Assembly (NCBI RefSeq): GCF_019823105.1
Contig: NZ_CP081960.1
Coordinates: 248,001-312,000 of the forward strand
Length of the DNA stretch: 64,000 nucleotides
From: Halobaculum magnesiiphilum
GTDB lineage: Archaea > Halobacteriota > Halobacteria > Halobacteriales > Haloferacaceae
Reading direction: 5' to 3'
The translations under genes were made by a program, and so were the position numbers. How positions within the stretch are numbered: position 1 is the first letter of the stretch; each line of letters opens with the position of its first letter. Below are positions 6,618-54,204 of the stretch, one piece after another. The notes under the pieces were generated by a model that was given only the letters and a program-made list of their open reading frames with translations, was not told the DNA's origin and made no database searches.

Positions 6618-7922
6618 TCACAGTCCGTACTGTGCGCGAACGGTCTCCGCGAGCCCGACCTCCTCCAGCGTCTCCATCGGGACGAGCATGGAGAGTTGGA
6701 CGACGCCCGGCAGGCGGGCGATCTCGACGCCGCCGGTGAAGGTGCAGCGGCCGCGCACCTCGCCCTCGCTCATGTCGAGGAGGTCGCCGGCGCGGTCGAA
6801 GGCGTTCTCGGTCGCGTCGTTGATCGTCGCACCCGAGCCGACCACCTGGATCGGCGCGGCGTCGTGAAGTTCGTCCACGTCGTACTCGTTGGCGACGGCC
6901 TGCCCCGACTCCCGTTCGGCCTCCGTGTACGGCTTCGCGATGTGTGGCAGGTCCTCCTCGTTGGGAAGCAGGATCGGTCCGCCGAGATCCAGGTCCTTGA
7001 TCACCTCGACCTCCAACTCGGTCCGGCCGCTCACGTCGGTCGTGTGCAGGGAGAGCTCGCCGTCGCCTTGGTTCGCGTGGAGGTCGCCGACGTAGAGGCC
7101 GGCACCGTCGACACGGACGGGGCAGATCAGCGTCGCGCCCGGACGAACGTCGTTGGAGTCGAGATGGCCGTCGGTGCGCGCCTCCAGTTCCGACTCGTCG
7201 TCGAGCCCCCAGTCGTGGCTCGCGCCGATGAGGAACTGCCCGAAGTCGCCGGCGTTGTGCGAGTCGGGGAACTCGCGGGCCGGCGTCGTCCCGATGTTCC
7301 CGATGAACGGCTGAAGCCGGCCGAGCGCGCCCGGCATCTCGTCGGGCCCGTACAACAGGATCGGGTGCTGACGGGAGTTCTCTGGGAGCGCCATCGCCTC
7401 GTCGGCGTTCTCCGCGAGCCGCCGGGCGCCGTCCTCGTCGACGGTGACGCCGACGGTTTTCTCGTCGTCGAAGGCGACGGTGTAGCCGTACTCGAAGCCG
7501 AACGAGGACGCGTTCGCGCCGCACTCGGCACAGCGGATCGACTCCTCGCCGGTTCCCTCGACGACGCTCTCGGGCCAGGGGGTGCCGCACTCGGGACACT
7601 TGTGGTCGACGAACGGATCGTCGCCGAAGGCGCCCTCGCGTTCGGCCATGCTCCCCGTGCTCGTGGCCGCGCTCGTCACCTCGACGTCCGTGATACGCAC
7701 GACGAGCGCGTCGCCGGGTTCGGCGTTCTCGACGCGGATCGGCCGCGTCACCTCGTGGCCGCCCCTGAACTTGGGGGTGATCATCGGACCCCAGCACGCC
7801 GGCGGCGTGTGCGTGTGAACGGTTCCACCGTCGGCGACGGTCCCCGCCCACTCCTGGTCGGGACCGACGAGGCCGAGGGTGAACGCGTCCACCTCCAGCT
7901 CCTCCTGTATCTGTTGGGACAT
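6618..7922 (-). CDS. Acetamidase/formamidase family protein with zinc-ribbon insert
   Basis: 434 residues from ATG 7922 (MSQQIQEELE). The FmdA/AmdA fold is indicated by PIRVENAEPGDALVVRI, RPGATLICPVRVDGAGLYVGDLHANQGDGE and C-terminal GVVQLSMLVPMETLEEVG. Members hydrolyse formamide or short-chain amides to ammonia. Unusually, Cys109-x2-Cys112 and Cys131-x2-Cys134 form a zinc-ribbon-like insert (HKCPECG and IRCAECG) after about residue 100, which the second family member in this window (28928-29989) lacks. The gene is monocistronic and converges with the MoaD-like gene. An upstream in-frame extension to 8084 overlaps the DUF2270 gene and is rejected. Substrate unknown. Confidence 0.85.
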   Translation of the reverse strand: MSQQIQEELEVDAFTLGLVGPDQEWAGTVADGGTVHTHTPPACWGPMITPKFRGGHEVTRPIRVENAEPGDALVVRITDVEVTSAATSTGSMAEREGAFGDDPFVDHKCPECGTPWPESVVEGTGEESIRCAECGANASSFGFEYGYTVAFDDEKTVGVTVDEDGARRLAENADEAMALPENSRQHPILLYGPDEMPGALGRLQPFIGNIGTTPAREFPDSHNAGDFGQFLIGASHDWGLDDESELEARTDGHLDSNDVRPGATLICPVRVDGAGLYVGDLHANQGDGELSLHTTDVSGRTELEVEVIKDLDLGGPILLPNEEDLPHIAKPYTEAERESGQAVANEYDVDELHDAAPIQVVGSGATINDATENAFDRAGDLLDMSEGEVRGRCTFTGGVEIARLPGVVQLSMLVPMETLEEVGLAETVRAQYGL

Positions 7923-7983
7923 GCGATCGTGACTATGTGTCCCAGTCGCATAATTATCGGCGCCGAGGAACCGATCGCCGGTG

Positions 7984-8856
7984 TCAGCGCCGTTTCCGGA
8001 GGTCCTCCGACCGGAGTTCGCCCTTCGCGTGCCAGGTTCGAGGCCGGCACGCGATCCCGATCGCGGCGACGTAGAAGGCGCCAACGGTGAGGAGAACGAC
8101 TGTCCCCGGGACCATTCCGATCGCCGCGGCGGCCGGCCATGGGTCCGATGAGAAGGCCGTCGTTCGGATCAACCAGGCAGCCAGGAGGATGGCGAACAGC
8201 GGAAGATACACCCGGCGGAGCCGGTGAGCGATCGCCTCCTCGGCCGTTATCTTCAGCGTCGGCGACCGGTAGTCGTCGCCGAGGCGTTCGCGCCACTCCT
8301 CGTCGGCGAGGCCGCCCTCCGGGTCGAGCCCGTAGGCCCAGACGTTCTCCTGAATGGTGCGAACGCGCGTGCGCCAGATGTCGTACCCGCGGTAGCGACG
8401 CGACTCGATCACCAGGAAGACCGACAGCGTCGCGACGCCGACGAGGATGATGTAGTGGGGGTTGTTCGGGCTGGTGAACGCCCACGTGAGCAGCGCGGCG
8501 ATAACGACGACCCCCCAGTTCGTCGTCCGATCGAGGCGTTCGCGCCACAGCTTCATCCGGTGAAGCTCCCCCCGGTAGAGGTGCGCCATCGCCGAGCTCG
8601 GTCCCATGTCCTCGTCGAGGAGTCCCGCACCGACGTGTGGAGGCGACGCTTCGAGTGGGGTTTCCCCCGACTGTGATTCGTCGGGCTGCGATTCGGACCT
8701 TCTCCCGTCACGACCGGAGCCGACCGCGTTTCCGCCGAGGTCGCCCTCCGGAGAGCACTCGGTCTCGTCGCTGTCGGGATCGCCGTCGGGTTCTGCCGTC
8801 ATCCTCGATCGTTCCGCCAGGAAATCGTCGGTGCCGCCGTCGTCATCGACCGACAT
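7984..8856 (-). CDS. DUF2270 membrane protein
   Basis: 290 residues. The first ~85 are disordered and acidic. The DUF2270 core follows, starting at SSAMAHLYRGELHRMKLWRERLDRTTNWGV. There are two membrane segments at about 115-130 and 135-155, a soluble stretch with ENVWAYGLDPEGG and DDYRSPTLKITAEEAIAHRLRRVYLPLFA, and two more segments at about 215-235 and 243-268. The function of the family is unknown. It lies 61 bases upstream of the formamidase gene on the same strand and may share its promoter. A perfect palindromic element lies 45 bases before the start. Confidence 0.85.
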   Translation of the reverse strand: MSVDDDGGTDDFLAERSRMTAEPDGDPDSDETECSPEGDLGGNAVGSGRDGRRSESQPDESQSGETPLEASPPHVGAGLLDEDMGPSSAMAHLYRGELHRMKLWRERLDRTTNWGVVVIAALLTWAFTSPNNPHYIILVGVATLSVFLVIESRRYRGYDIWRTRVRTIQENVWAYGLDPEGGLADEEWRERLGDDYRSPTLKITAEEAIAHRLRRVYLPLFAILLAAWLIRTTAFSSDPWPAAAAIGMVPGTVVLLTVGAFYVAAIGIACRPRTWHAKGELRSEDLRKRR

Positions 8857-8900
8857 CGCCCCGGGAACTCACCCGATCCGAAGCCGCCGACATCGGCAAT

Positions 8901-8915
8901 AGTATGTACCATACT
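8901..8915. promoter_or_regulatory. Palindromic element upstream of the DUF2270 gene
   Basis: AGTATG and CATACT flank the three bases TAC, and a further half-site (AATACTG) follows at about 8920. The position, 45-60 bases upstream of the DUF2270 start, suits an operator or TFB-proximal regulator site. The cognate regulator is unknown. Confidence 0.4.
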
Positions 8916-9118
8916 GCCCAATACTGCTTCGAGCGGTTTATCGGTTTTGTCCGGCCCCGACGGGTTCGACGGTCCCGTTCATTCCTGACCGCGTTGGGAT
9001 GCATCGGACGCAATTTTGTCCAGATACCGCCAGGGGCGAACCGCAACCTTGTGCGTGTTTCGGGGGTCATCTCCGCCGACTACTGGCGGAACGAGATTGT
9101 AAATGGCACACACAACCC

Positions 9119-9124
9119 TTATAT
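9119..9124 (+). promoter_or_regulatory. TATA box of the HTH regulator gene at 9154
   Basis: TTATAT lies about 32 bases before the ATG at 9154, which predicts a leader of only a few bases. Confidence 0.5.
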
Positions 9125-9153
9125 CGCCGGAGATCGTTCGTATTACCAGACAA

Positions 9154-9552
9154 ATGCCCGATTCGATGTCCGAACAACTCCGACGGGACATGGAGTGCGA
9201 GGGGCTGCTCGAGTGCTTTCACGGCCTGAAGGAACTCGACAAGGACTGCTTCCAGGCGCTGGTTTCGGCCGACTCGCAGCTCACGATCGACGAGATCGCC
9301 GAGCGCGTCGACAGGGAGCGGTCGACCGCCTACCGCTCGGTTCAGCGACTCCTGAACGCGGGTTTCATCCAGAAGGATCAGATCAACTACGATCAGGGCG
9401 GGTACTACCACGTGTACAGCCCGAGGGACCCGTCGCAGATCGCCGACGACATGCAGCGCATGCTCAACGACTGGTACGCCAAGATGGGCCAGCTCATCGG
9501 CGAGTTCGAGACGAAATACGAGCAGTCCGAGCAGGTCCCCGCCGAGAACTGA
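9154..9552 (+). CDS. Winged-helix transcriptional regulator, 132 aa
   Basis: A DNA-binding winged helix spans about residues 35-85 (LTIDEIAERVDRERSTAYRSVQRLLNAGFIQKDQ, then a wing with YDQGGYYHVY). It resembles TrmB- or MarR-like folds. A C-terminal helix (ADDMQRMLNDWYAKMGQLIGEFETKYE) probably dimerises. The N-terminal part holds two cysteines (MECEGLLECFHGL) that could respond to redox. Start chosen at ATG 9154 because the TATA box lies about 32 bases upstream; ATG 9166 is an alternative. It stands alone, 223 bases before a thiol-disulfide reductase gene on the same strand, which is a possible target. Confidence 0.8.
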   Translation: MPDSMSEQLRRDMECEGLLECFHGLKELDKDCFQALVSADSQLTIDEIAERVDRERSTAYRSVQRLLNAGFIQKDQINYDQGGYYHVYSPRDPSQIADDMQRMLNDWYAKMGQLIGEFETKYEQSEQVPAEN

Positions 9553-9775
9553 CGGGTCACACGTCCGACTAGCACTCCAGCCAGCCTCGTTGCGCTGGTC
9601 GAATCATCGCTCTCGTAGTTCTGTTTAGTATCCCCATGACAATACATTACTGCAAGGAGAGTAACTGAATGGAGTCCGAGTTAGGATATTCCGTGGGTTC
9701 CCGGCCGTGGGCGGATTGGCATCGATCGGACACAGCGACCGTTGACTATTGTACTTGGTCGCCGACTGCGAGGTC

Positions 9776-11221
9776 ATGGACGAAGTCGATTTCCTCGTCA
9801 TCGGATCCGGTTCCGGGCTCGACGTCGCGAACGCGGCCGCGAACCGGGGACAGTCCGTCGCGATCGTGGAGAAGGGTCCGCTCGGTGGTACCTGTCTCAA
9901 CCGCGGCTGTATCCCGTCGAAGATGCTGCTGTACCACGCGGAGATCCTTGAGACGATCGAGCGGGCCGACGAGTTCCACATCGACGCGACCGTCGAGGGC
10001 GTGGACTTCTCGACGATCGTCCGGGAGGTCAACGAGGAGGTCGAGGGCGACTCGGCGTCGATCCGGGAGGGACTTCGGTCGTCGCCGAGACACGATCTGT
10101 ACGAAGGAGAGGGTCGATTCGTCGACGACAACACCGTCGAGATCGTCGGCGGCGACGACGACGGAACGCGGATCGCTGCCGATACGATCCTCATCGCGGC
10201 GGGGACGCGACCGGCGATCCCGCCGATCGACGGGATCGACGACGTGGACTATCTGACCAGCACCGAGGCCCTGCAACTGGAGACGCCGCCCGACCACCTC
10301 GTCATCGTCGGCGGCGGCTACATCGCCGCCGAGCTCGGCCACTTCTTCGAGACGTTCGGGAGCGAGGTGACGATCGTTGGTCGCCGGCCGAACCTCCTCC
10401 CGGAGGCGGACCCGGAGGTCGCCGAGGCGTTCACCGACCGCTACGGGGAGCGGATGACCGTCCACACGGGCCACGCCGCGACGGCGGTCTCGCAGTCAGA
10501 CGGGGAGGTCACCGTCGAGGCGAAGCCGTACGAGTACGGGGATGACGGCGATGACGGCGACGATGGCGGGATCGTGGACGACGATCCGGTGTCGGTGACG
10601 GGGGACGAACTCCTCGTCGCCGCCGGTCGGACGCCGAACACGGACACGTTGAACCTCGGGGAGACCGGCATCGAGACCGACGAACGGGGGTTCGTCGAGA
10701 CCGACGAGTACCTCCGGACGACCGTCGACGGCGTGTGGGCCCTCGGCGACATCGTCGGGGAATATCTGCTGAAACACAGCGCCAACCACGAGGCACAGGC
10801 GGTGGTACGGAACCTCTTCGGCGACGAGCTCGAAGCGGTCGACTACTCCGCGATGCCGTTCGCCGTGTTCGCGTCGCCCGAAGTCGCGGGCGTCGGCGCG
10901 ACCGAGGACGAACTCCGGGCGGCCGGCCGCGAGTACGCGACTCGAACGTACGCCTACGACCAGACTGCACGGGGAAGCGCGATGAAGGCGGACGGGTTCC
11001 TGAAGGCGATCATAACACTCGAGGGCGAGATCCTCGGGTGTCACATCGTCGGCCCGGAGGCGTCGAATCTCATCGAGGAGGTCGTCGTCGCGATGAAGTC
11101 GGGATCGGGGACCGTCCGGGACATCCGTGAGTCGGTGCACGTTCACCCCGCGCTCTCGGAGGTCGTCCAGCGAGGGTTCTCCGGCCAGTTCACACGAGGC
11201 GGCGACGGTCACTCACACTGA
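9776..11221 (+). CDS. Class I pyridine nucleotide-disulfide oxidoreductase, possibly bis-gamma-glutamylcystine reductase
   Basis: 481 residues from ATG 9776. FAD-binding GSGSG is at 10-14 and the redox-active pair is Cys40/Cys45 in GGTCLNRGCIPSK. NAD(P)-binding follows in VIVGGGYIAAELGHFFETFG, and the C-terminal dimer-interface base in HVHPALSEVVQRGF. The family includes dihydrolipoyl dehydrogenase, mercuric reductase and mycothione reductase. The GSGSG start and ILETIERADEFHI resemble the mycothione-reductase branch, and haloarchaea use gamma-glutamylcysteine, so a bis-gamma-glutamylcystine reductase is my favoured but unproven role. No 2-oxo-acid dehydrogenase genes lie nearby, which argues against a complex E3. 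An Asp-Gly repeat (about residues 252-262) looks like a salt-adapted loop expansion. Confidence 0.85.
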   Translation: MDEVDFLVIGSGSGLDVANAAANRGQSVAIVEKGPLGGTCLNRGCIPSKMLLYHAEILETIERADEFHIDATVEGVDFSTIVREVNEEVEGDSASIREGLRSSPRHDLYEGEGRFVDDNTVEIVGGDDDGTRIAADTILIAAGTRPAIPPIDGIDDVDYLTSTEALQLETPPDHLVIVGGGYIAAELGHFFETFGSEVTIVGRRPNLLPEADPEVAEAFTDRYGERMTVHTGHAATAVSQSDGEVTVEAKPYEYGDDGDDGDDGGIVDDDPVSVTGDELLVAAGRTPNTDTLNLGETGIETDERGFVETDEYLRTTVDGVWALGDIVGEYLLKHSANHEAQAVVRNLFGDELEAVDYSAMPFAVFASPEVAGVGATEDELRAAGREYATRTYAYDQTARGSAMKADGFLKAIITLEGEILGCHIVGPEASNLIEEVVVAMKSGSGTVRDIRESVHVHPALSEVVQRGFSGQFTRGGDGHSH

Positions 11222-13564
<2,343 letters not shown>

Positions 13565-43479: not shown

Positions 43480-43998
43480 ATGGACCTGACCAGCAGCCAG
43501 CGGGAGATCCTGAACACCCTCGTCAACGGGTACGAGGAGACGGAGTCCCCGATGCCGGCCACCGAGATCGCCGAGGTGTGCGACCGGCACGTGGGGACGA
43601 TCCGGAACCTGATGCAGATGATGAAGTCGCTCGGGTTGGTCGAGGGCGTCCCGGGATCGGAGGGCGGGTACGTGCCGACCGACGCCGCCTTCGAGGCGCT
43701 GGACCGCGATCCGGTCGACGGCGGCGAGGGCGAGACCCTGGGCCTTGCCCACGACTACGACCGGGTCGACGTGGCCGTCGAGTCGATCGACTTCACCAAC
43801 GTCCACCACCCGGAGAAGTGCCGCGCGACCGTGACGTTCCGGGAGTCCGTCACGCGGTTCAGCGTCGGCGACCCGGTGATCGTCGGGCCGACGCCGAACT
43901 CGGGGCTCGTGATCACGGGACAGGTCGAGGCGACCGACGAGGGACGCAACGTTCTCCATCTGGACGTGAAGCGGATGGAAGCGCCGCTGGAGCCATAA
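43480..43998 (+). CDS. Winged-helix regulator, Rrf2-like, 172 aa
   Basis: The HTH is at about residues 5-65 (SQREILNTLVNGYEETESPMPATEIAEVCDRHVGTIRNLMQMMKSLGLVEGVPGSEGGYVPT), close to Rrf2-type winged helices. The C-terminal ~95 residues form a beta-rich ligand-binding domain (FTNVHHPEKCRATVTFRESVTRFSVGDPVIVGPTPNSGLVITGQVE). The lone cysteines (Cys29, Cys114) are not a classic FeS cluster. It lies downstream of malic enzyme on the same strand with a 263-base gap and an A/T-rich TATA candidate (CGTATTTGAA, near 43441), so it is probably separately expressed. Confidence 0.8.
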   Translation: MDLTSSQREILNTLVNGYEETESPMPATEIAEVCDRHVGTIRNLMQMMKSLGLVEGVPGSEGGYVPTDAAFEALDRDPVDGGEGETLGLAHDYDRVDVAVESIDFTNVHHPEKCRATVTFRESVTRFSVGDPVIVGPTPNSGLVITGQVEATDEGRNVLHLDVKRMEAPLEP

Positions 43999-44099: not shown

Positions 44100-45857
44100 T
44101 CACGGGTCCGCAGTCGACGAGTCGAACGCCAACTCGAGTTCGTGAAAGTAGCATCGAACGTCGCGGGGGTCAGTTCGACCGCCCGTCGTCGGCGGTCGCG
44201 ACCGCGTCCGCTCGGACGCGACGTGCGTGGCGGCACACCGCCGGACGAGTTCCCGGTCAGCGTCGACCGCGTCGGCGGTCCGCTCGATCCCGAGGTCGCG
44301 GTCGACGAGGCGGACGAGGATCGCATCGACCAGTTCGGGGGACGCACCGCCGATAGTCTCTCGAGTGTCGTCCGGACGGACCGCGTCCGACCGACAGCGG
44401 TCACGCCGGTCCGCGTACGCGAACGAGCACCCGAGCTGGCGCCCGACCGCGTCCAGCTCGCTCGCGTACGTGGCGCCCACCGGCCGGAGGTCCGCGGCCG
44501 CGTCGCCGTACCGCGTCGTCCGCCCGAGGAGGGTGTCGGTCCGGTTGGTCGTACCCACGACGAGCCGGTCGTCCACGTTGGCGACGTAGTACCGGCAGGC
44601 CGTCCGGACCCGTGAGACGAACTCGCCGAGGTCGGTCGCACCCGCGTGCTCGGTGACTCGCGACGGAAGCGCCGACTCGAGTTCCGTGACGAGCGGCCTG
44701 ATCGTCACCCGGTCGTCGGAGATCCCGAGGTCGTCGGCGATCGACTCGGGGGACGGGGCATCGCGTCCGGCCGCCTTGTGACACGGGAGGTGGAGCCCGC
44801 GGACCCGGTCGGCCCCGAGCGCCTCGACGGCGATCGCGGCGGCGACGCTCGATTCCCGGCCTGTCCCCAGATCGACGACGACGCCCTCGGCGTCGGCGGC
44901 CTCGACGCGGGACCGAACGAGTTCGCTGGCACGCTCGACGATCGAGGCCGCCAGACGGGAGCCGCCGTGGACCGCGCGATCCGCGTCCGAGTCGGCGTCC
45001 GGTTCGGTCGCCGCGTCCGGGACGGTCCGGGACGGCGCCGGCGGCCGCGACCGCTTGTGGGCGTTTCGTTCGACCCGGTCGACGATCCGGTTGACGGTAT
45101 CGCCGTCGACGCCCGTCGACTCGTCGATCGCCGTCGCGGGGTCGTGCGGCGACGTGTCGACGAGCGCTCCCAGGACGGTATCGAGCGTCGCATAGGAGGC
45201 GCCGAGCTCTGACTCGTCGGTCTGTCCTCGCCAGAAGCCTGCCGTCGGCGGCCGGGAGACGATCTCCGGCGGCACGTCGAGGTGTGTCGCGAGCGCCCGC
45301 ACCGCCGTCTTGTCGTACTCGCCGAGGGGGTGCAGGTCTGCGGCGCCGTCTCCGTACTTGGTGAAATAGCCGAGCAGCCGCTCGGTCCGGTTGCTCGTCC
45401 CGACGACGACGCCGTCGGACGCGTCGGCGACGAGGTGGGCACACGCCATCCGGAGGCGTGCCGAGAGGTTCCCGGCGGCGACGGCGTCGCCATCAGCCGC
45501 GATCCGGGGGGCGACGTATCGCTTGAACACGTCGAGGGCGGGCTCGAGCGGCACGGTCGCGTGATCCACGCCGAGCGAGTCGGCGTACGACCTGGCGTCG
45601 CGAACGTGTCGCTCGTCCGTTGTGTCCGTCGGCATGATCAGCGCCGTCACCGCGTCGGCGCCGAGCGCATCGACCGCGAGCGCGGCCGTGGTGGCCGAGT
45701 CGACGCCGCCGGAGAGACAGACGACGCCGTGCGACGCGTCGACCGCTTCGGCCGTCTCCCGGATCAGCTTCGTCGACCGGGAGCGAAGCAGCGCGGGGTC
45801 GCCGGTCCTTGGGCTTCCGTCGGTCGGTCCGGCCGTCTCGGAGCATCCGGCCGCCAC
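44100..45857 (-). CDS. nadE: Tandem NAD synthetase, first half active, second half degenerate
   Basis: 585 residues made of two NadE-like halves. The first (about 22-275) has the ATP-pyrophosphatase P-loop SGGVDSATT (49-57), VVGTSNRTERLLGYFTKYGDGAADLHPLGEYDKTAVRAL, and AGFWRGQTDESELG. It should convert deamido-NAD to NAD with ammonia. The second half (about 300-560) aligns over the same regions (VVVGTTNRTDTLLGRTTRYGDAAADLRPVG), but the P-loop is replaced by LGTGRESSV at 330-338 and the GQTDE block is missing. It cannot bind ATP in the normal way. NadE normally works as a dimer, so the fusion may form an intramolecular pseudo-dimer. No glutaminase domain is attached. Confidence 0.88.
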   Translation of the reverse strand: MAAGCSETAGPTDGSPRTGDPALLRSRSTKLIRETAEAVDASHGVVCLSGGVDSATTAALAVDALGADAVTALIMPTDTTDERHVRDARSYADSLGVDHATVPLEPALDVFKRYVAPRIAADGDAVAAGNLSARLRMACAHLVADASDGVVVGTSNRTERLLGYFTKYGDGAADLHPLGEYDKTAVRALATHLDVPPEIVSRPPTAGFWRGQTDESELGASYATLDTVLGALVDTSPHDPATAIDESTGVDGDTVNRIVDRVERNAHKRSRPPAPSRTVPDAATEPDADSDADRAVHGGSRLAASIVERASELVRSRVEAADAEGVVVDLGTGRESSVAAAIAVEALGADRVRGLHLPCHKAAGRDAPSPESIADDLGISDDRVTIRPLVTELESALPSRVTEHAGATDLGEFVSRVRTACRYYVANVDDRLVVGTTNRTDTLLGRTTRYGDAAADLRPVGATYASELDAVGRQLGCSFAYADRRDRCRSDAVRPDDTRETIGGASPELVDAILVRLVDRDLGIERTADAVDADRELVRRCAATHVASERTRSRPPTTGGRTDPRDVRCYFHELELAFDSSTADP

Positions 45858-45859
45858 GG

Positions 45860-46084
45860 TCAGTCACCTCCCGGCCCGTCTTCGCCCCCGAGGTCGAGGG
45901 CTGTCGCGTCCGTCGCCGGCGCTGGCGCTGGGAGGTCGTACGCGACGCTCGACTGGATCCACGCGTTCACCCGGTCGCGATCGTACACGATCACGCCGCC
46001 GTCGCCGAGCGAGAGGCGTCCGTATCTGTGTGTCACGGACGGATCCGTCGGCGCGTCGCCCTCGGCGCGCGGGTCCGTGGTCAT
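45860..46084 (-). CDS. Small haloarchaeal protein, DUF7331-type, 74 aa
   Basis: The conserved core is SVTHRYGRLSLGDGGVIVYDRDRVNAWIQSSVAYDL, which matches a small haloarchaeal family of unknown function. The N-terminal ~18 and C-terminal ~20 residues are low-complexity. It lies two bases before the tandem NadE gene on the same strand, so it is probably co-transcribed with it. No catalytic motif is visible. Confidence 0.75.
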   Translation of the reverse strand: MTTDPRAEGDAPTDPSVTHRYGRLSLGDGGVIVYDRDRVNAWIQSSVAYDLPAPAPATDATALDLGGEDGPGGD

Positions 46085-46603: not shown

Positions 46604-47749
46604 ATGAGTCTGGTATATCTGTCAATGCCGCTTCGTCCCGTCGATCGCGACGTTCTGGAAGATATCTCACAGGACATCTCACAGTCCAACTATGGATTCC
46701 TGTACGTCGACCGCGTCCGCGACGACCTGAAGGACCAGTACCAGAGTCGGGAGAAAGGCCGATTGAAGGCGCCGAAGCTGTCGACGTCAGACGTGAAGGA
46801 GTCCCTTCGCGATCTGGCGGAGGACGAGAACTACAGCCTCGAACGGATCCGGTCGGGGGTGTTCTACTGGGACCCGTTCGGCAGCGGCACCCGGACGGGG
46901 ATCACCGAGCGCCTCAAGGGCGTTTTCCGTGACCAGATGGTCGTCACGACGGAGGACCTCCGGAAGGCGTTCGACCTGGCCCACGAGGACGCGGACTTCT
47001 TCGCCAAGCAACTACGGCGACAGAACCTCGTGATGCGTATCGCCGCGGGGAGCCGGGACTACTACTCCGTCGGTTCACGCCTGAAGGAGGAGACGGGCGA
47101 AGACGACCTCAAGGGGAAGCTCAAGCGGCGGGCGACCCACGGCAAACTCTCGCACGGCCAGTTGGAGGAAGCCATCTCGGTGGCCGCAACCTCGGACGTG
47201 ATCGGCTATCTCCAGGGTGAGGGGCTCATCATCGACATGGACGGCGAGTACCTCGTCCGGAGCGCGCTGGACGAGTTCGCCGAGAAACTCGCCGACGACC
47301 TCGGCGACGACGTGAGCCGGGCGTTCGAGGACGCCGGCAACGTGATGCCGACCGGCGAGTACGACTCGCTGATAGAATCGGAGATCGAGGTCCGGTCGAA
47401 CGTGCTCGCGCATGTCAGATCCAGCGGCGCAGACATCGGCAAACGGGACGTCATCGAGGCCGTCCGGGAGCAGTACGACGACGAGGACGGGGATCCGCAC
47501 GTCGAGGTGCTCGATGCGCGCAGCCTCGCCGTGGCCGTCGAACCGTTCGACCGGATGGTCGAGGGGCGAGCCGAGGACCTCACCCGACCCCTGCTGCAGG
47601 ACCTGACGGCGACGACCGCCGACAACCTCAAGCAGGAACTCCGTGAGGAGATCGAGGACCTTCACCTCACGACGAGCGACGCCGGCAACGCGTACGCACG
47701 AACGAAGGTCCGCGAACGCGGCGAAGCGCTGATCGACGAGCGATTCTGA
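46604..47749 (+). CDS. Tandem winged-helix-like protein, first gene of the AAA operon
   Basis: 381 residues without membrane segments. Helix-turn-helix-like repeats are visible at about 90-150 (VTTEDLRKAFDLAHEDADFFAKQLRRQNLVMRI), 165-220 (KLKRRATHGKLSHGQLEEAISVAATSDVIGYLQGEGLII) and 260-320 (VRSNVLAHVRSSGADIGKRDVIEAVREQYDDE), suggesting a chain of winged helices. Such chains occur in ESCRT-II and UFL1-type scaffolds as well as DNA-binding proteins; the fold here is my inference. The C-terminal ~60 residues are helical. It is followed by the coiled-coil gene after 25 bases. Start ATG 46604; ATG 46625 is possible. Confidence 0.7.
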   Translation: MSLVYLSMPLRPVDRDVLEDISQDISQSNYGFLYVDRVRDDLKDQYQSREKGRLKAPKLSTSDVKESLRDLAEDENYSLERIRSGVFYWDPFGSGTRTGITERLKGVFRDQMVVTTEDLRKAFDLAHEDADFFAKQLRRQNLVMRIAAGSRDYYSVGSRLKEETGEDDLKGKLKRRATHGKLSHGQLEEAISVAATSDVIGYLQGEGLIIDMDGEYLVRSALDEFAEKLADDLGDDVSRAFEDAGNVMPTGEYDSLIESEIEVRSNVLAHVRSSGADIGKRDVIEAVREQYDDEDGDPHVEVLDARSLAVAVEPFDRMVEGRAEDLTRPLLQDLTATTADNLKQELREEIEDLHLTTSDAGNAYARTKVRERGEALIDERF

Positions 47750-47774
47750 TCCCCCCATACCCCCACCAATTACA

Positions 47775-48809
47775 ATGCGATACACGAGCTTCGAGGAAGA
47801 CAAGGAGTCCGGAACGGTCGTCGCACGACCGAAGAGCCAGACCGATTCGGCGGTGCGGTTCGAGCACGGCTTCGCCGAGTGGTCCGACGAGGACAGCGGG
47901 AACTGGGAGGAACTGCTCGCACACCTCATGGAGGAAGTCCTCGGCGGCGAGGAGCTCTCCATCGACCAGGACGGCAACGCGGTGATCGACGTCGAGGACG
48001 CCGCACAAACGCTCGCGGAGAGCGAACACGCCCGCAGCGAGGACTCCGCGCGCGCCATCATCGACTACCTCGGCCACAACGACATCGTCACGATCGAGCA
48101 GTCGACAGTGACCGTGCTGCGGCCGCCTCACACCTACGACGAGGACGAGATGGACCGCGCGGTGAAGATGTACAGCAACTGGGCGGCGGCGTTCGACACG
48201 CTCACCGAGCGAATCGAGACGGCGGTCAGCCGGGTCGAAGAGGCCCAAGAGCGGCTCACCTCGCGCGCCGAAGAGACGACCGACGTGACCGAGCACCTCC
48301 AGAACCTCCGCGAGAAGCGCGAGGAGTACAAACAGGAGATGCTCTCGATCGCCGGCGACCGCGATATCGACGACCTCGACGAGGAGGAACGCCGGAAGTT
48401 CGATCACGCCCGCGAGCAGTACTACCACTACGACAACCTCGTCGAGCAGGAGGAGAAGCAAGGAGAGACGATCCCGAACCCGAACCCCGATCAGATGGAC
48501 CTCGGGGAGATCATCAACCAGCTCGAATCGACCAAAGACCAGTTCTCGATCGAGCAAGAGCGCCTGCGCGACCGCATCCGGACCCAACAGCTGTGGCCGA
48601 CGGAGGCGGTCGCCGCCTCCGAGCAGTTCACGAACGTGCTGTCGGCGATGGGCAACGTCGTCCCCAAGCAACAGCGGATGGAGGAGGAGGACGCACAGAG
48701 CGTCCTCGACGGCCTCCGCGGCAACTCCGAGGAGATGGCCGAGCTAAACGAATCCTCCCAGGCGATCGCCCAAGAAGAAACCGAGACGGGACCGATCACG
48801 GAATCGTGA
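47775..48809 (+). CDS. Coiled-coil protein with N-terminal helical/winged domain
   Basis: 344 residues, acidic. The N-terminal ~115 residues look like a compact domain, possibly winged helix (EELLAHLMEEVLGGEELSIDQDGNAVIDVEDAAQTLAES, then IIDYLGHNDIVTIEQSTVTVL). Residues ~130-290 are a long heptad-rich coil (AFDTLTERIETAVSRVEEAQERLTSR, then LQNLREKREEYKQEML). The C-terminus is helical and polar. No known family recognised. Co-transcribed with the winged-helix-like gene upstream and the helical and AAA genes downstream. A scaffold or adaptor role is likely. Confidence 0.7.
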   Translation: MRYTSFEEDKESGTVVARPKSQTDSAVRFEHGFAEWSDEDSGNWEELLAHLMEEVLGGEELSIDQDGNAVIDVEDAAQTLAESEHARSEDSARAIIDYLGHNDIVTIEQSTVTVLRPPHTYDEDEMDRAVKMYSNWAAAFDTLTERIETAVSRVEEAQERLTSRAEETTDVTEHLQNLREKREEYKQEMLSIAGDRDIDDLDEEERRKFDHAREQYYHYDNLVEQEEKQGETIPNPNPDQMDLGEIINQLESTKDQFSIEQERLRDRIRTQQLWPTEAVAASEQFTNVLSAMGNVVPKQQRMEEEDAQSVLDGLRGNSEEMAELNESSQAIAQEETETGPITES

Positions 48810-48887
48810 GGATGTGGTTCGGGACCAGTTCGAGCGTCGACGACGGCGTCGAGTCGCGACCGCCGTCCGGAGAGATTTCGGGGGGTC

Positions 48888-48892
48888 GGAGG
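48888..48892 (+). promoter_or_regulatory. Ribosome-binding site supporting the GTG start at 48900
   Basis: GGAGG lies seven bases before GTG 48900, one of the few clear Shine-Dalgarno sites in the window. It decides the start of the helical protein gene within the operon. Confidence 0.6.
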
Positions 48893-48899
48893 TAACCGC

Positions 48900-49544
48900 G
48901 TGTCCCGCCCGTCCACCGTCGACCCGTGGGTCGACCGCGTCGCCGCCGTCGAGCACACGTGCGACCGGATCCTCTCGTGGACGGAGCCGCCCGAGCCACG
49001 GCGGGTCTGGGCGGCGATCGCGTCGTTCGACGCGTCGCTGCGCGGGATCGGGACGGTGCTGGCCGATGCATACCCCCTCCCGGTCCCGGCGACGACTGAC
49101 GACGGGCGGATCGCGGAGGCGGTCGAGCGAGTGATCACGGCGGCCATCGACGGCGAGGAACCGCCGACGGACGCCGTCGAGACGGCCCGCGACGCGGATC
49201 GGATCACGGTCGTCGAGTCCGGGTCGCCGACGGTCCCGCTCGCGACTGCCGGCGCGCCGGTCGCGAACTGGTTCGTGCTGGTTCCGGTCGTTGCCGACCG
49301 ACTCGACCGCGCCGCCGGCATGGTCGAGCGCGGCGCCGGCCGGATGGAACTGTACGACCGCGACGACTCCGCGGCCGCGCTGTACGACGTCGCGGGCGCG
49401 CTTCGTGACACCGGGACGACGGTTCGAAACGTTGCCACGCGGACGCTGTGGGTCAACCCGCCGGACGGGTTGGTCGACGCCGAGGACAGGCGGGTTCGCG
49501 AATACGTGACCCGAACGATGAACGCCTACAACCCAGTCACATGA
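48900..49544 (+). CDS. All-helical protein of unknown function, 214 aa
   Basis: From GTG 48900, the protein is predicted mostly alpha-helical with no membrane segment (DRVAAVEHTCDRILSW, VERVITAAIDGE, and the long C-terminal helices MVERGAGRMELYDRDDSAAALYDVAGALRDTGTTVRNVATRTLWV). No family recognised. Its stop overlaps the ATG of the AAA gene (ATGA), so translation of the two is coupled. It may be an adaptor for the AAA ATPase. The next-upstream gene ends 90 bases earlier. Confidence 0.7.
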   Translation: MSRPSTVDPWVDRVAAVEHTCDRILSWTEPPEPRRVWAAIASFDASLRGIGTVLADAYPLPVPATTDDGRIAEAVERVITAAIDGEEPPTDAVETARDADRITVVESGSPTVPLATAGAPVANWFVLVPVVADRLDRAAGMVERGAGRMELYDRDDSAAALYDVAGALRDTGTTVRNVATRTLWVNPPDGLVDAEDRRVREYVTRTMNAYNPVT

Positions 49545-51187
49545 CGAGTGTCAATCTCACGCCGATCACGAAGGAGGAGCAGCCGACGTCCCACGTCACC
49601 GTGGGAGAGAGCAAAGTGGGGCCGAGCGCCGAGATCGCCCGCGTCCGGCACGCGGGCCGGGAGGCGTTCTTTCGCGTCGACACCGAGGACGACGGCTTCG
49701 CGAGCACGATCAAGAACAAGGTCTACCTGAACAGCAACGTCGCGACGCTGTTCGGCGGCATCAACCGAACGAACGACTTCTACGTCGACACCGACGTGTC
49801 GCTCGGGTCGGTCCGGACCTGCAAGCGCGCGAGCATCTACGCCGAAGGGGTCAACGAGGAGGCGCTGGCCTCGGCGCTCGCCGAGCGTCAGTTCCTATTG
49901 CATCCCATCCACGAGGTGGCCGACATCGGCGGCGAGCGTGTCGAGTTCGTCGTCGACGAACTGGAGCCGCGGGGGACGACCCTCCGGGTCGACGACGACA
50001 CCGAATTCGAGTTCCTCGACGAACCGCCCGCGAGCACGGGCCCGCCGGCCGGAGCAGACGTCGGCGCGAGCGGAGGGGGCGACGGGTCGGCCGGCGGCGG
50101 TAGAGGCGGTGCCGGCGGGCAGGCCGACGAGGAGGAGGCCAACATCGACATCACCCCGAAGAACCCGACGACGAGCTTCGAGGAGGACGTCGCGGGACTG
50201 GAGGAGGTGAAGCAGACGGCGGAGATGATGCTGTCGCTGTTCGAGCCGGACGTGCGCGACGAGGTCGTCGAGCGTTACGGCGAGGAGTTCGCCGACCGCG
50301 GCGGCGGCATGATGCTGTACGGGCCGCCCGGCTGCGGGAAGACGCTCGTCTCGGAGGCGATCGCCTACGAGGCGAAGCACAACACCGACATCGAGGACAG
50401 CTACGGCGAGGTCGTCTTCCTCGAGGTTCGCGGCAGCGACGTGGTCTCGAAGTACTCCGGCGAGTCCGAGAAGAACGTCCGCGCGGCCTTCGAGCAGGCC
50501 CACGAAGCCGCCGGCGACGGGTTCGCCGTCCTCTTCTTCGACGAGGTGGAGACGCTCATCCCCGACCGGTCGGACGACAACCTCCAGCGCCACGAGCGCG
50601 CGCTGACGAACGCGTTCCTCCAGGAGATGAACGACGTGGAGGACAACCTGCTGGTGATCGGCGCGACGAACATGCCCTTCAGCATCGACCCGGCGGCGAC
50701 CCGACGGTTCCCGATCCAGCAGTTCATCCCGCAACCCGACGCCGACGTGATGTCGGAGGTGTGGCGCACGTCGCTGGGACGCATCGGCGAGGACCTCGAC
50801 GAGGAGGCGCTCGAGGAGCTGGGGGAGGCGTCGGTCGGGTACACTCCCGCCGAAATCGCCGACCGCGTGCTCGGCTCGGAGCTGCAGCGCGAACTCATCG
50901 AGAGCGTCATCGACGGCGACGCGATCACACCCGACAAGCAGTACCTCCTGGAGAAGCTGGAGGAGTCGGAGCCCAAGACGGTTCGCCAGTACGTCTCATC
51001 GACGATGAAGCAGGCCTCGGAACTTGAGGGGTACCCGGAAATGAAGCGCTACCTCGAGGAGCAGGCCAAGCAAATCCGTGAGGAGAACGCCGCGAGCGCG
51101 GACGCGAACGCGGCCGCGACGCCCGACGGCGGAGCCCCCGCGGACGACGGCCCGGACGAGCCGGGTGAGGACACGGGGGCCGAGTAG
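49541..51187 (+). CDS. Cdc48/Vps4-like AAA ATPase
   Basis: 548 residues. The N-terminal domain (about 1-165) is beta-rich and vaguely like Cdc48 N-domains. A Gly/Ala-rich linker (165-200) follows, then one AAA module with Walker A GPPGCGKT (261-268), Walker B VLFFDE (330-335), pore loop KYSGESEKNVR (from Lys304), sensor-1 GATN (374-377) and the pair Arg388-Arg389 as candidate arginine fingers. The small helical lid is near SVGYTPAEIADRVL. The C-terminus is disordered. AAA proteins of this type pull apart or remodel protein complexes as hexamers. Its overlap with the helical gene and position before the beta-rich gene make it the motor of this operon. Confidence 0.88.
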   Translation: MTSVNLTPITKEEQPTSHVTVGESKVGPSAEIARVRHAGREAFFRVDTEDDGFASTIKNKVYLNSNVATLFGGINRTNDFYVDTDVSLGSVRTCKRASIYAEGVNEEALASALAERQFLLHPIHEVADIGGERVEFVVDELEPRGTTLRVDDDTEFEFLDEPPASTGPPAGADVGASGGGDGSAGGGRGGAGGQADEEEANIDITPKNPTTSFEEDVAGLEEVKQTAEMMLSLFEPDVRDEVVERYGEEFADRGGGMMLYGPPGCGKTLVSEAIAYEAKHNTDIEDSYGEVVFLEVRGSDVVSKYSGESEKNVRAAFEQAHEAAGDGFAVLFFDEVETLIPDRSDDNLQRHERALTNAFLQEMNDVEDNLLVIGATNMPFSIDPAATRRFPIQQFIPQPDADVMSEVWRTSLGRIGEDLDEEALEELGEASVGYTPAEIADRVLGSELQRELIESVIDGDAITPDKQYLLEKLEESEPKTVRQYVSSTMKQASELEGYPEMKRYLEEQAKQIREENAASADANAAATPDGGAPADDGPDEPGEDTGAE

Positions 51188-51189
51188 CC

Positions 51190-54100
51190 GTGGACGACGC
51201 CGGCTCGAACCCGGAGGAGTGGGACGACGCCTCGGCGGACCCTGACTCCGACGAGTGGGGCGACCGACCGGACGACGGCCGGGACGAGCCGACGAACGAG
51301 GCAGCCGTCGACGAGTCGGAAGCGGCGGCAACGGCGGAAACAGCGAGCGAAGCGACGACGGCGGAACCGGCCGACCCGGCGGAAGCGACGGAAACGACGA
51401 CACCGCCTGACTCCGATGACGCGTCGGACGACGCCGACGACGAGTTCGGCCCGGATGCCGACGAGGCTGAGGTCCCCGAACGGTACGTGCAGGTGGACGC
51501 CTTCGACATGCCGGAGGTCGCGGCCGCCGACGCCGGCTCCGGCGCCATCGCGGTCGCGACCGCCGACGGCCGGATCTCGCTCATCACGTCGGGCGACCGT
51601 CGCCGGGTCGCCCGCAGGGACGACGTGGTCGACGTCGCCGTCGCGGACAGGGTGTACGCACTCGGCGACACGGAACTCGAGGCGTTCTCGCACGCGGGGA
51701 GCCGAGTGTGGGGCGTCGACATCGCGGACGGCCGGTCGGTCGACGCCGACCCCGATGCCGATCGGGTGTACGTCAGAACCGGCGACGGCGAGTTCGTCGT
51801 CATCGAAGGCCGGACCGGCATCGAGGCGGGCCGGTTCGACCAACCACATGCCGAGGTCGCCGAGTCGCCGGCGGTCGCGGCCGCGGACGGCAGGCTCGCG
51901 GTCGCCTCGTGGTCGTTCCTGACGGTGCTCGATTCCTCGGGCGATCAGCTCGACGAGCAGACGCTGTCGGGCGCAGTCACGGACGTCGGGCTGCTTCCCG
52001 GGCGTGCGGTTGTCTCCCTGAAGGACGGCCAACTCGTCGGCTACGAGGGTGACGAGCAACTGTGGGGGATCGACGGCGACGTCTCCTGGCTGGCGGACGC
52101 CGGCGTCGCCGGGCTGGCGGCCCGCGTCGCCGGCAGCGACTTCGCGGTCGACGCCGACGGTAACCGTCACCCGATGGACGGGGTCAGCGGCACGCCGATC
52201 GCGGCGACCCCGTCGCTGGACCTCGTGTGTACGGTCGGAAGCGGGACTGCGACGGTGTACGCGGCGGTCGGACGGGCCGACGAGTCGGTCGGCGTCCGCG
52301 TCGAGTCGGAGTCGCTTCGGCCAGCCGACCCGACCGTCGTGCTCGCGTTCACGAACGAGGGCGACCGCGCCGTCGAGGTCGACGCGAGCGTCGAGGCCGA
52401 GGGCGCCGACGTCGCCTCCTCGACCGTGTCCGCCACGATCGACGCCGGCGCGACCCAGCGTCGGCGCGTCTCGCTGCAGGCGCTGTCGGCCGACGAGGTG
52501 ACGGTCGCCGCCGCCGTCGGCGAGGCGTCGACCGAGAAGACCCTCGAGGTCCAGGAGGAGACCACCGCGCTCCACGTCGAATCGGTCCTCCACGGCGTCG
52601 AGGACGGCGTGCTGTCGGCGGCGATCGACGTGGAGAACGACGGGGAAACGAGCGTGACGGGCGTGACCGTCGGCGAAACGCCGGTCGGGACGCTCGATCC
52701 GGGGGAGTCCGAGCGAGTTCCGTTCGAGCAGGACCTCCCCAGCGGCGCGGTTCGTGTTCGGGCGGACGGCGTCGACCCCCTGGAGGCCGAGACGAGCGTT
52801 CCCGCGACGCCGACGGGGATCGAGATCGAAGCCGAGTCCGACGGCTTCCTCTCGGTGACGCTGCACAACGACACGCCCGTCGCCGTCGACGACGAGGTCA
52901 CGATCGACGGCGTTCCCGACGGGAACGGCTCGTTCTCGATGCCGGTGTCGATCCCAGCGAACGGCGCCTATCGGCTCGCACTCCCGGTCGCCTCCTCCGG
53001 CGAGCGCTCCGTGACGGTCGAAACGAGCGGCGGGCGCGTCTCCGAACGGCTCTCGCTGAACCGGTGTTCGCTGCTTCAGGACGACACCGGCGGAGGCGTC
53101 GCGAACCGAGCTGGCGGCGGCAGCACCGATCGGGGCGTGTCCGGATCGTCGACCGGGACGGCCGCCGGTCCGCGGTCGGATCGCGGCGGCGGATCCGTCC
53201 CCGTCTCCATGGACCGGCAGTTCCCGTCGGCCGACCCCAGGCGGGGCGTCGTGTTCGAGGAGCGGTTGGTGGTGTCGAACGAGTCGGCCGAACCCGTCGA
53301 GTTCGAGCTTCGAACGGACGACGGTGCCTACGCCCAGCGACTGAAGGTCCGCGCGAACGGGCAGGCGGTCGGCACCCGATACCACGTGCCGCTCGAGTCC
53401 ACGCTGTCGCTCCCGCGAGTCGAACTCGAACACGAGGGACGAACCACGTCGGTTCCCGCGACCGAACTCGCGGTCGATGACGGCGGGCTGGTCGCGGTGA
53501 TCGCATGGGGGCAGTCCGCCGACGGCGACGGCGGCGAGCTCTCGGTGACCGTCGAGAGCGACGAGGGAACGTGGGAGGTCGAGGAGGCCGTCGTCGGCGG
53601 CGAGCCGTCGGAGCAGATCGACGCGGAGGTGACTCCCGATTCGCCGGCACATGCCACGGTCGCCACGCCGTACACGCTCCGCGACGACGTTGCGAAGGCG
53701 TTCGTTCGTGCCCGCCGGACCGACGGCCGATCGACGAACGGAGAGGTCCAGCAGGTGAACACTCTCGTCGTTCACGAGTCGGTCGTGGGCGGCGATGGCG
53801 ACCGCGTGGACGACCTGACCGTCGAGGTGGAGCCAGACTCGCGCGTCGAGCGCGGCTTCGGGTCGGTGTTCCTCTCCGTCACGAACGACGGCTCTCGGCC
53901 GGTCGGCGGCGTCTCGATCGACGCGGACGGGCCGCACGTCGAGAAGGCGATGTACGCCGACGGCGACGACGGCGAGACGATCCCCCCGGAGTCGTCGATC
54001 CGGTACCTGGTCGACCTCGAGGGCGTCGAATCGGGCGACGAGGTCGTCGTCGACGCCGAGATCTCCGCCGGCGAGGCCGCCACGCGCGCGACCGTCTCGG

Positions 54101-54204
54101 CGGTCGCCGACGACGAGGCCGCCGTCGCGTCCGACGACTGGACCCTCGACGTCGAGACGGACGAGTCCCGACTGCCGTCCCGACTCTCGACGCAGTACGA
54201 GTAA
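51190..54204 (+). CDS. Large cytosolic beta-propeller / beta-sandwich protein, 1004 aa
   Basis: From GTG 51190. The first ~95 residues are an acidic disordered stretch. Residues ~100-360 show repeats of strands typical of a PQQ-like or WD-type beta-propeller (AIAVATADGRISLITSGDRRRVA, VYVRTGDGEFVVIEGRTGIEAG, AVVSLKDGQLVGYEGDEQLWGI). About five immunoglobulin-like or CARDB-type domains follow (such as PTVVLAFTNEGDRAVEVDASVEAEGADVASSTVSATI). There is no signal peptide or membrane segment, so it should stay in the cytosol, unlike most CARDB proteins. It follows the AAA gene by two bases and may be its substrate receptor or scaffold. Converges with the membrane-protein operon. Confidence 0.75.
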   Translation: MDDAGSNPEEWDDASADPDSDEWGDRPDDGRDEPTNEAAVDESEAAATAETASEATTAEPADPAEATETTTPPDSDDASDDADDEFGPDADEAEVPERYVQVDAFDMPEVAAADAGSGAIAVATADGRISLITSGDRRRVARRDDVVDVAVADRVYALGDTELEAFSHAGSRVWGVDIADGRSVDADPDADRVYVRTGDGEFVVIEGRTGIEAGRFDQPHAEVAESPAVAAADGRLAVASWSFLTVLDSSGDQLDEQTLSGAVTDVGLLPGRAVVSLKDGQLVGYEGDEQLWGIDGDVSWLADAGVAGLAARVAGSDFAVDADGNRHPMDGVSGTPIAATPSLDLVCTVGSGTATVYAAVGRADESVGVRVESESLRPADPTVVLAFTNEGDRAVEVDASVEAEGADVASSTVSATIDAGATQRRRVSLQALSADEVTVAAAVGEASTEKTLEVQEETTALHVESVLHGVEDGVLSAAIDVENDGETSVTGVTVGETPVGTLDPGESERVPFEQDLPSGAVRVRADGVDPLEAETSVPATPTGIEIEAESDGFLSVTLHNDTPVAVDDEVTIDGVPDGNGSFSMPVSIPANGAYRLALPVASSGERSVTVETSGGRVSERLSLNRCSLLQDDTGGGVANRAGGGSTDRGVSGSSTGTAAGPRSDRGGGSVPVSMDRQFPSADPRRGVVFEERLVVSNESAEPVEFELRTDDGAYAQRLKVRANGQAVGTRYHVPLESTLSLPRVELEHEGRTTSVPATELAVDDGGLVAVIAWGQSADGDGGELSVTVESDEGTWEVEEAVVGGEPSEQIDAEVTPDSPAHATVATPYTLRDDVAKAFVRARRTDGRSTNGEVQQVNTLVVHESVVGGDGDRVDDLTVEVEPDSRVERGFGSVFLSVTNDGSRPVGGVSIDADGPHVEKAMYADGDDGETIPPESSIRYLVDLEGVESGDEVVVDAEISAGEAATRATVSAVADDEAAVASDDWTLDVETDESRLPSRLSTQYE

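Follow-up and report, generated by a model that had tools for sequence, protein, structure and literature searches.

An intact and a variably degenerate NAD synthetase domain joined in one haloarchaeal protein

Introduction

Pairs of a catalytic protein and a pseudoenzyme, derived from gene duplication, are a well-known general class. For NAD synthetase (NadE), we found no description of such a pair in the open-access literature, nor of any NadE–NadE fusion (subscription journals lay outside the search). The enzyme itself is central to metabolism and works as a dimer, with the pocket for NaAD located at the subunit interface (PMC6946656). Single-domain archaeal NadE uses ammonia (PMC3376133), and gene islands that bring together PII and nadE are already known (PMC7196632).

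Here we describe a gene of Halobaculum magnesiiphilum in which two NadE domains – the first with all its catalytic motifs, the second degenerate – are joined in a single chain. The fusion is a real and maintained variant of a known enzyme, and its second halves form a graded series from intact to inactive.

The fused gene and its two domains

The host genome comprises four contigs (3.73 Mb), and the window – the whole stretch of DNA analysed here, 64,000 nucleotides long – corresponds to positions 248001-312000 of contig C3, a secondary replicon. The closest named record to its sequence is Halobaculum roseum plasmid unnamed2 (89.6% identity). The fused gene occupies positions 44100-45857 of the window on the minus strand, with a GTG start codon at 45857 and a product of 585 amino acids. 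PF02540 (NAD_synthase; cut-off 21 bits) matches this protein twice, with 235.7 bits in the N-terminal half (N-half; domain at residues 20-278, 45024-45800, minus strand) and 111.3 bits in the C-terminal half (C-half; residues 300-580, 44118-44960, minus strand). The original prediction of two NadE-like domains in one chain is thus borne out at exactly this open reading frame, with the strand as a detail that it had not given. The whole protein scores 401.6 bits against NF010587 (cut-off 255), and a Pfam search of the chain found no glutaminase domain, only NAD_synthase and weak matches to other HUP/ATP-pyrophosphatase families. A canonical NadE is encoded separately, at position 1540060 of the 2.97 Mb contig C1 (275.5 bits). 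As for earlier steps of NAD synthesis, quinolinate synthase (NadA), of which Haloferax volcanii has one, gave no match in the whole genome of the window's organism, which may rely on salvage for NAD.

In the motif alignment, the N-half reads SGGVDS at the pyrophosphate loop (residues 49-54; 45696-45713, minus strand), followed by ARLRM, GTSNRTE, TKYGDGAAD, DKT, PTAGFW, GQTDE at the P2 loop (residues 211-215; 45213-45227, minus strand) and AHKR, so every element of the NadE motif test (SGGxDS, GTxNRTE, KYGDG, DK, GQTDE, HKR) is found in it. At the aligned columns, the C-half has GTGRES in place of SGGxDS (residues 331-336; 44850-44867, minus strand), SRVRT, GTTNRTD, TRYGDAAAD, YAS, RSDAVR, DDTRE and ERTR. 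Of the residues expected of an active enzyme, SGGxDS, the catalytic lysine and GQTDE are all absent from it, with GTGRES, YAS and DDTRE in their stead. In terms of the motifs known for the family, these changes do away with the pyrophosphate loop, with the lysine and the threonine that bind ATP, with the P2 loop and with the HK pair, and they turn the Mg-binding Glu into Asp. The individual motifs read earlier from the sequence – SGGVDS and GQTDE in the first half; NRTD, LLG and YGD in the second – are all present.

The putative NaAD-site residues give a mixed picture in the C-half: R416 and D456 are kept, HK has been lost in most Halobaculum and the lysine of TKYGD has been replaced by Arg or Pro in most (these residues are ascribed to the NaAD site, and to one chain or the other, after UniProt/HAMAP annotation). 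For the idea of an asymmetric retention, by which the N-half would keep the cis and the C-half the trans residues, the comparison gives a mixed result.

Distribution and origin of the fusion

Haloarchaeal homologues with the same architecture, for which the original prediction had proposed a search, are indeed found: the fusion is encoded in 16 sampled haloarchaeal genomes, namely nine of Halobaculum (the window's own, G010, G011, G012, G014, G015, G016, G017 and G019), two of the Haladaptatus family (Haladaptatus pallidirubidus, G335, and G289) and five of genus g89, to which Halocatena marina and H. salina belong. It is missing from two further sampled Halobaculum genomes, G013 (85% complete) and G018 (93% complete), and at an E-value of 1e-70 matches among 393 genomes of the phylum were confined to Halobaculum. 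The fusion is also carried by eight plasmid records (H1-H8), each with a single match over nearly the full length, and all of them are haloarchaeal. As the architecture recurs in 15 genomes besides that of the window, chance and assembly error are ruled out as its source. So is a duplicate of recent date, decayed and confined to this strain – the objection that the original prediction had raised against itself – the fusion being common to 16 genomes.

In trees of the separated halves (one of 139 rows and a careful one of 56 rows), all N-halves form one clade (support 94 in the former tree and 88/80 in the latter) and all C-halves another (99 and 100/99, respectively). Both lie inside a haloarchaeal paralogue group that we call NadE2, with canonical NadE outside, a pattern that indicates one fusion event as its simplest reading. 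Origin as a tandem copy of the chromosomal NadE is ruled out, since both halves group in NadE2, apart from the canonical copy.

The motifs of the N-half are kept in all 16 fused proteins, none of which has a degenerate N-half. The C-half is largely canonical in six (Halobaculum sp. CBA1158, Haladaptatus, G289, G461, G433 – where the pyrophosphate loop reads SGSVDS – and Halocatena marina) and degenerate in ten: eight from Halobaculum, together with G467 and G358 of the Halocatena genus (DGRKRS). The label of a degenerate second half, as originally proposed, therefore suits the window's protein and fails for the family as a whole, 6 of the 16 C-halves being largely canonical. On the full-length tree, degeneration of the C-half needs two changes, and its single origin is rejected, a joint clade of the degenerate proteins having a p-AU of 0.00017. 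To judge from these alignments and trees, the functional motifs of the C-half were lost separately at least twice, in the eight Halobaculum and in the two members of the Halocatena genus. Two losses within Halobaculum itself are conceivable, because in the half-by-half tree H. marinum has an N-half that diverges earlier than that of CBA1158, with weak support.

The fusion thus began with two intact halves, and the division into a catalytic and a pseudoenzyme half is therefore a secondary condition of particular lineages, reached at least twice. The original reading of a catalytic/pseudoenzyme dimer, putatively obligate and perhaps with a regulatory second site, is a reasonable one, and the maintenance of a dead half stands, as set out below; the asymmetry, however, is derived and not inherent in the fusion.

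Selection on the degenerate half

Pairwise comparison among six degenerate Halobaculum proteins (Nei–Gojobori; H. limi was left out, and H. marinum gives pairs close to saturation) gave dN/dS values of 0.24-0.43 for the C-half versus 0.10-0.31 for the N-half. None of the ten degenerate proteins has a stop codon or frameshift. Catalytic residues have been lost while purifying selection persists, as in a pseudoenzyme, and the dead half is evidently maintained: its frame is open, its dN/dS lies well below 1 and its NadE fold is complete.

Constraint is unevenly distributed within the C-half. It has been lost in the P2-loop region (residues 477-503; 44349-44429, minus strand), which is without GQTDE and has a mean pairwise identity of 0.23 across eight species, versus 0.74 in the N-half, and partly lost in the P-loop (0.57 versus 0.92). 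It is retained in the strands, in the GTTNRT segment (0.81) and in the helix aligned to GN-ARxRM (0.73). In the tail helices, the C-half is the better conserved of the two (0.62 versus 0.42), and the C-terminal tail FHELEL (44130-44147, minus strand) occurs in all 16 fused proteins with small variations.

In every Halobaculum pair compared, evolution is faster in the C-half than in the N-half, the P2 loop of the C-half drifts freely and different species stand at different stages of loss – all of which would be expected of a tolerated relic, made redundant in catalysis by the fusion, decaying slowly and merely harmless to the fold, while the N-halves of two chains pair as in ordinary NadE. We nonetheless regard such a relic as unlikely, given the uninterrupted frames of the ten degenerate proteins, the dN/dS range of the C-half, the better preservation of its tail helices and C-terminal tail relative to the equivalent tail of the N-half, and the whole NadE fold that it is predicted to retain.

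Predicted structure and a working model

An AlphaFold2 model of the full-length protein, built with the 16 fused sequences, has a mean pLDDT of 80.8 and a pTM of 0.84, the latter as confident as would be expected of one packed unit. Its N-half superposes on NadE of Pyrococcus horikoshii (2e18) with a Z score of 29.5 and an rmsd of 2.0 over 254 residues. When folded alone (pLDDT 73.1, pTM 0.73), the C-half still adopts the NadE fold, with a Z score of 25.0 to 2e18 and an rmsd of 2.7 over 234 residues. Its helix aligned to ARxRM is predicted with a confidence of about 93 in the full-length model versus 78-84 alone, and its C-terminal tail with 81 versus 34, a gain which indirectly suggests that the helix and the tail pack on the N-half.

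We favour, as reasonably probable, an ammonia-dependent NadE2 fusion that forms a NadE dimer within one chain, in which a single site works and the C-half is a pseudoenzyme partner. Two NadE2 subunits would have been fused head to tail in an ancestor in which both halves were intact; in most Halobaculum, the C-half would then have become a pseudoenzyme partner as its ATP/Mg site disappeared, together with the P2 loop and the catalytic lysine. Still folding as NadE, it would pack on the N-half in place of the second subunit – a putative geometry, judged by pTM and pLDDT – so that the pocket for NaAD would still be built at the dimer interface. The N-half alone would adenylate NaAD, its probable substrate, and add ammonia, leaving the C-half a structural or perhaps allosteric role. 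Counted against such a built-in partner are the uneven retention of NaAD-site residues in the C-half and its faster evolution relative to the N-half.

The same structural comparisons bear on the substrate. The solved structures closest to the fusion, in sequence as in fold, include Francisella NMN synthetase (3fiu), archaeal NadM can take NMN (PMC3376133) and a canonical NadE is present in the genome, so one might imagine that NadE2 fusions produce not NAD but another amide, such as the NMN that the Francisella enzyme makes from NaMN. We consider this very improbable: 2e18 outscores 3fiu (a likeness by sequence and fold that is silent on the substrate of 2e18 itself), and NadE of Methanocaldococcus jannaschii is without appreciable NMN synthetase activity (PMC3376133).

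Neighbouring genes and regulation

Immediately upstream of the fusion lies a gene for a 74-residue DUF7331 protein (45860-46084, minus strand), whose stop codon precedes the start codon of the fusion by 2 nucleotides. All Halobaculum loci that were checked conserve it at this place. Among six genomes of the genus checked for DUF7331, each has one chromosomal copy, and a second copy is found only in the four with the fusion. In Haladaptatus pallidirubidus and G289, the gene order is DUF7331, amt, PII, a separate degenerate NadE-like gene and the fusion (L142:5906-10629 and L145, minus strand, 7440-12385). No PII gene lies beside the fusion in the window's genome, where the only one is at C1:2011132.

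These neighbours invite the reading that the C-half is a non-catalytic sensor, binding NaAD, NAD, an adenine nucleotide or a partner such as PII or DUF7331 and thereby controlling the N-half. In its favour are the operon that joins the fusion to amt and PII (Haladaptatus and G289), the linkage of DUF7331, the parts of the nucleotide region (GTTNRT, YGD and D456) retained in the C-half, and the precedent of bacterial glutamine-dependent NadE, whose inhibition by NAD is relieved by PII (PMC7196632). Yet where PII is linked to the fusion, as in Haladaptatus and G289, the C-half is intact; the sole PII gene of the window's genome lies elsewhere, and the P-loop and HK have been lost from the C-half. 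A sensor therefore seems to us rather improbable. Similarly little weight attaches to the bolder scenario in which a doubly active ancestral fusion turned into a catalytic/pseudoenzyme protein at least twice, the dead half now serving as a regulatory subunit by which PII, DUF7331 or a bound nucleotide would convey the status of nitrogen or NAD.

The additional NadE-like gene of Haladaptatus (NAD_synthase, 97.7 bits) reads SGDVDS, has lost most other motifs and is publicly annotated as 7-cyano-7-deazaguanine synthase. Its counterpart in G461 is full length and nearly intact, and such third copies group together in the 56-row tree. On the Halocatena salina plasmid, a 79-residue 'hypothetical protein' upstream of the fusion (L143:8694-8933) is a C-terminal remnant of the same gene. 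A further archaeal linkage of PII to NadE is seen in Candidatus Mnemosynella, where Amt-PII-Amt-PII lies directly upstream of a single NadE (L073:1471-5798).

A winged-helix regulator of family PF03444 is encoded convergently with the fusion (43480-43998, plus strand). The five genomes checked each contain exactly two PF03444 genes, one of which adjoins NadE2, fused or single, in all five (G108:C2:68681, G103:C1:3668568, G061:C26:150398, G130:C23:311314 and the window's own); the NadE2-linked proteins are 45-47% identical to the Halobaculum copy. No recognisable NAD synthesis genes adjoin the chromosomal PF03444 copy. Such linkage across genera is unlikely to be due to chance and suggests that the PF03444 protein is a dedicated regulator of NadE2. 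The fusion most likely serves as a second NAD synthetase in addition to the canonical one on the chromosome, and gene linkage would place it under a local PF03444 regulator. The single-domain NadE2 of G103 (L033, C1:3667608-3668366) has altered motifs – RGGLDS, GSVTRTD, FET and GYADE – and is perhaps another NadE moving towards a pseudoenzyme.

Two other features of the region deserve mention. In several Halobaculum, the downstream neighbour is a malic enzyme to which a phosphotransacetylase-like domain is fused (PF00390, PF03949 and PF01515; 40955-43216, plus strand). On the other side lies a five-gene cluster (46604-54204, plus strand), which H. roseum also has next to its fusion and H. halobium has in similar form. 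It encodes coiled-coil proteins whose similarity to JetC is very weak, an AAA ATPase like the IetA/TRIP13 models and a 1004-residue protein without a family; it is perhaps an unrecognised defence or DNA-maintenance system.

Significance and comparison with known systems

A single genus offers a natural series, in which the second site is intact in Halobaculum sp. CBA1158, partly lost in H. marinum and fully lost in the window's species, with the Haladaptatus fusion also at the end where both halves are intact. With this series, one could test directly whether two working sites are required in NadE or merely a second subunit that completes the first. Public labels such as 'NAD+ synthase' – or, for the third copy in Haladaptatus, '7-cyano-7-deazaguanine synthase' – conceal pseudoenzyme NadE domains.

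Among described systems, the fusion resembles ammonia-dependent NadE (PF02540, NF010587; 2e18 of P. horikoshii) in its fold, in the catalytic motifs of its N-half and in having no glutaminase domain; it differs in carrying two domains per chain, the second without ATP/Mg and P2-loop residues, and, from canonical NadE, in belonging to the NadE2 paralogue group. With Francisella NMN synthetase (3fiu) it shares the fold, and 3fiu is among its nearest solved relatives by sequence; that protein, however, is single-domain, and the likeness is one of fold and sequence. Glutamine-dependent NadE likewise has its synthetase domain fused to a second domain, but there the partner is a nitrilase-like glutaminase, whereas here it is a second NadE. 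As in the PII-nadE islands (PMC7196632), the fusion follows amt and PII in Haladaptatus and G289, which differ in having a fused NadE of the ammonia type and an extra degenerate NadE gene; in Halobaculum, this linkage is absent. Finally, as in other catalytic/pseudoenzyme pairs, duplication was followed by a one-sided loss of catalysis with the fold retained; what sets the fusion apart is that intact and inactive forms coexist within one genus.
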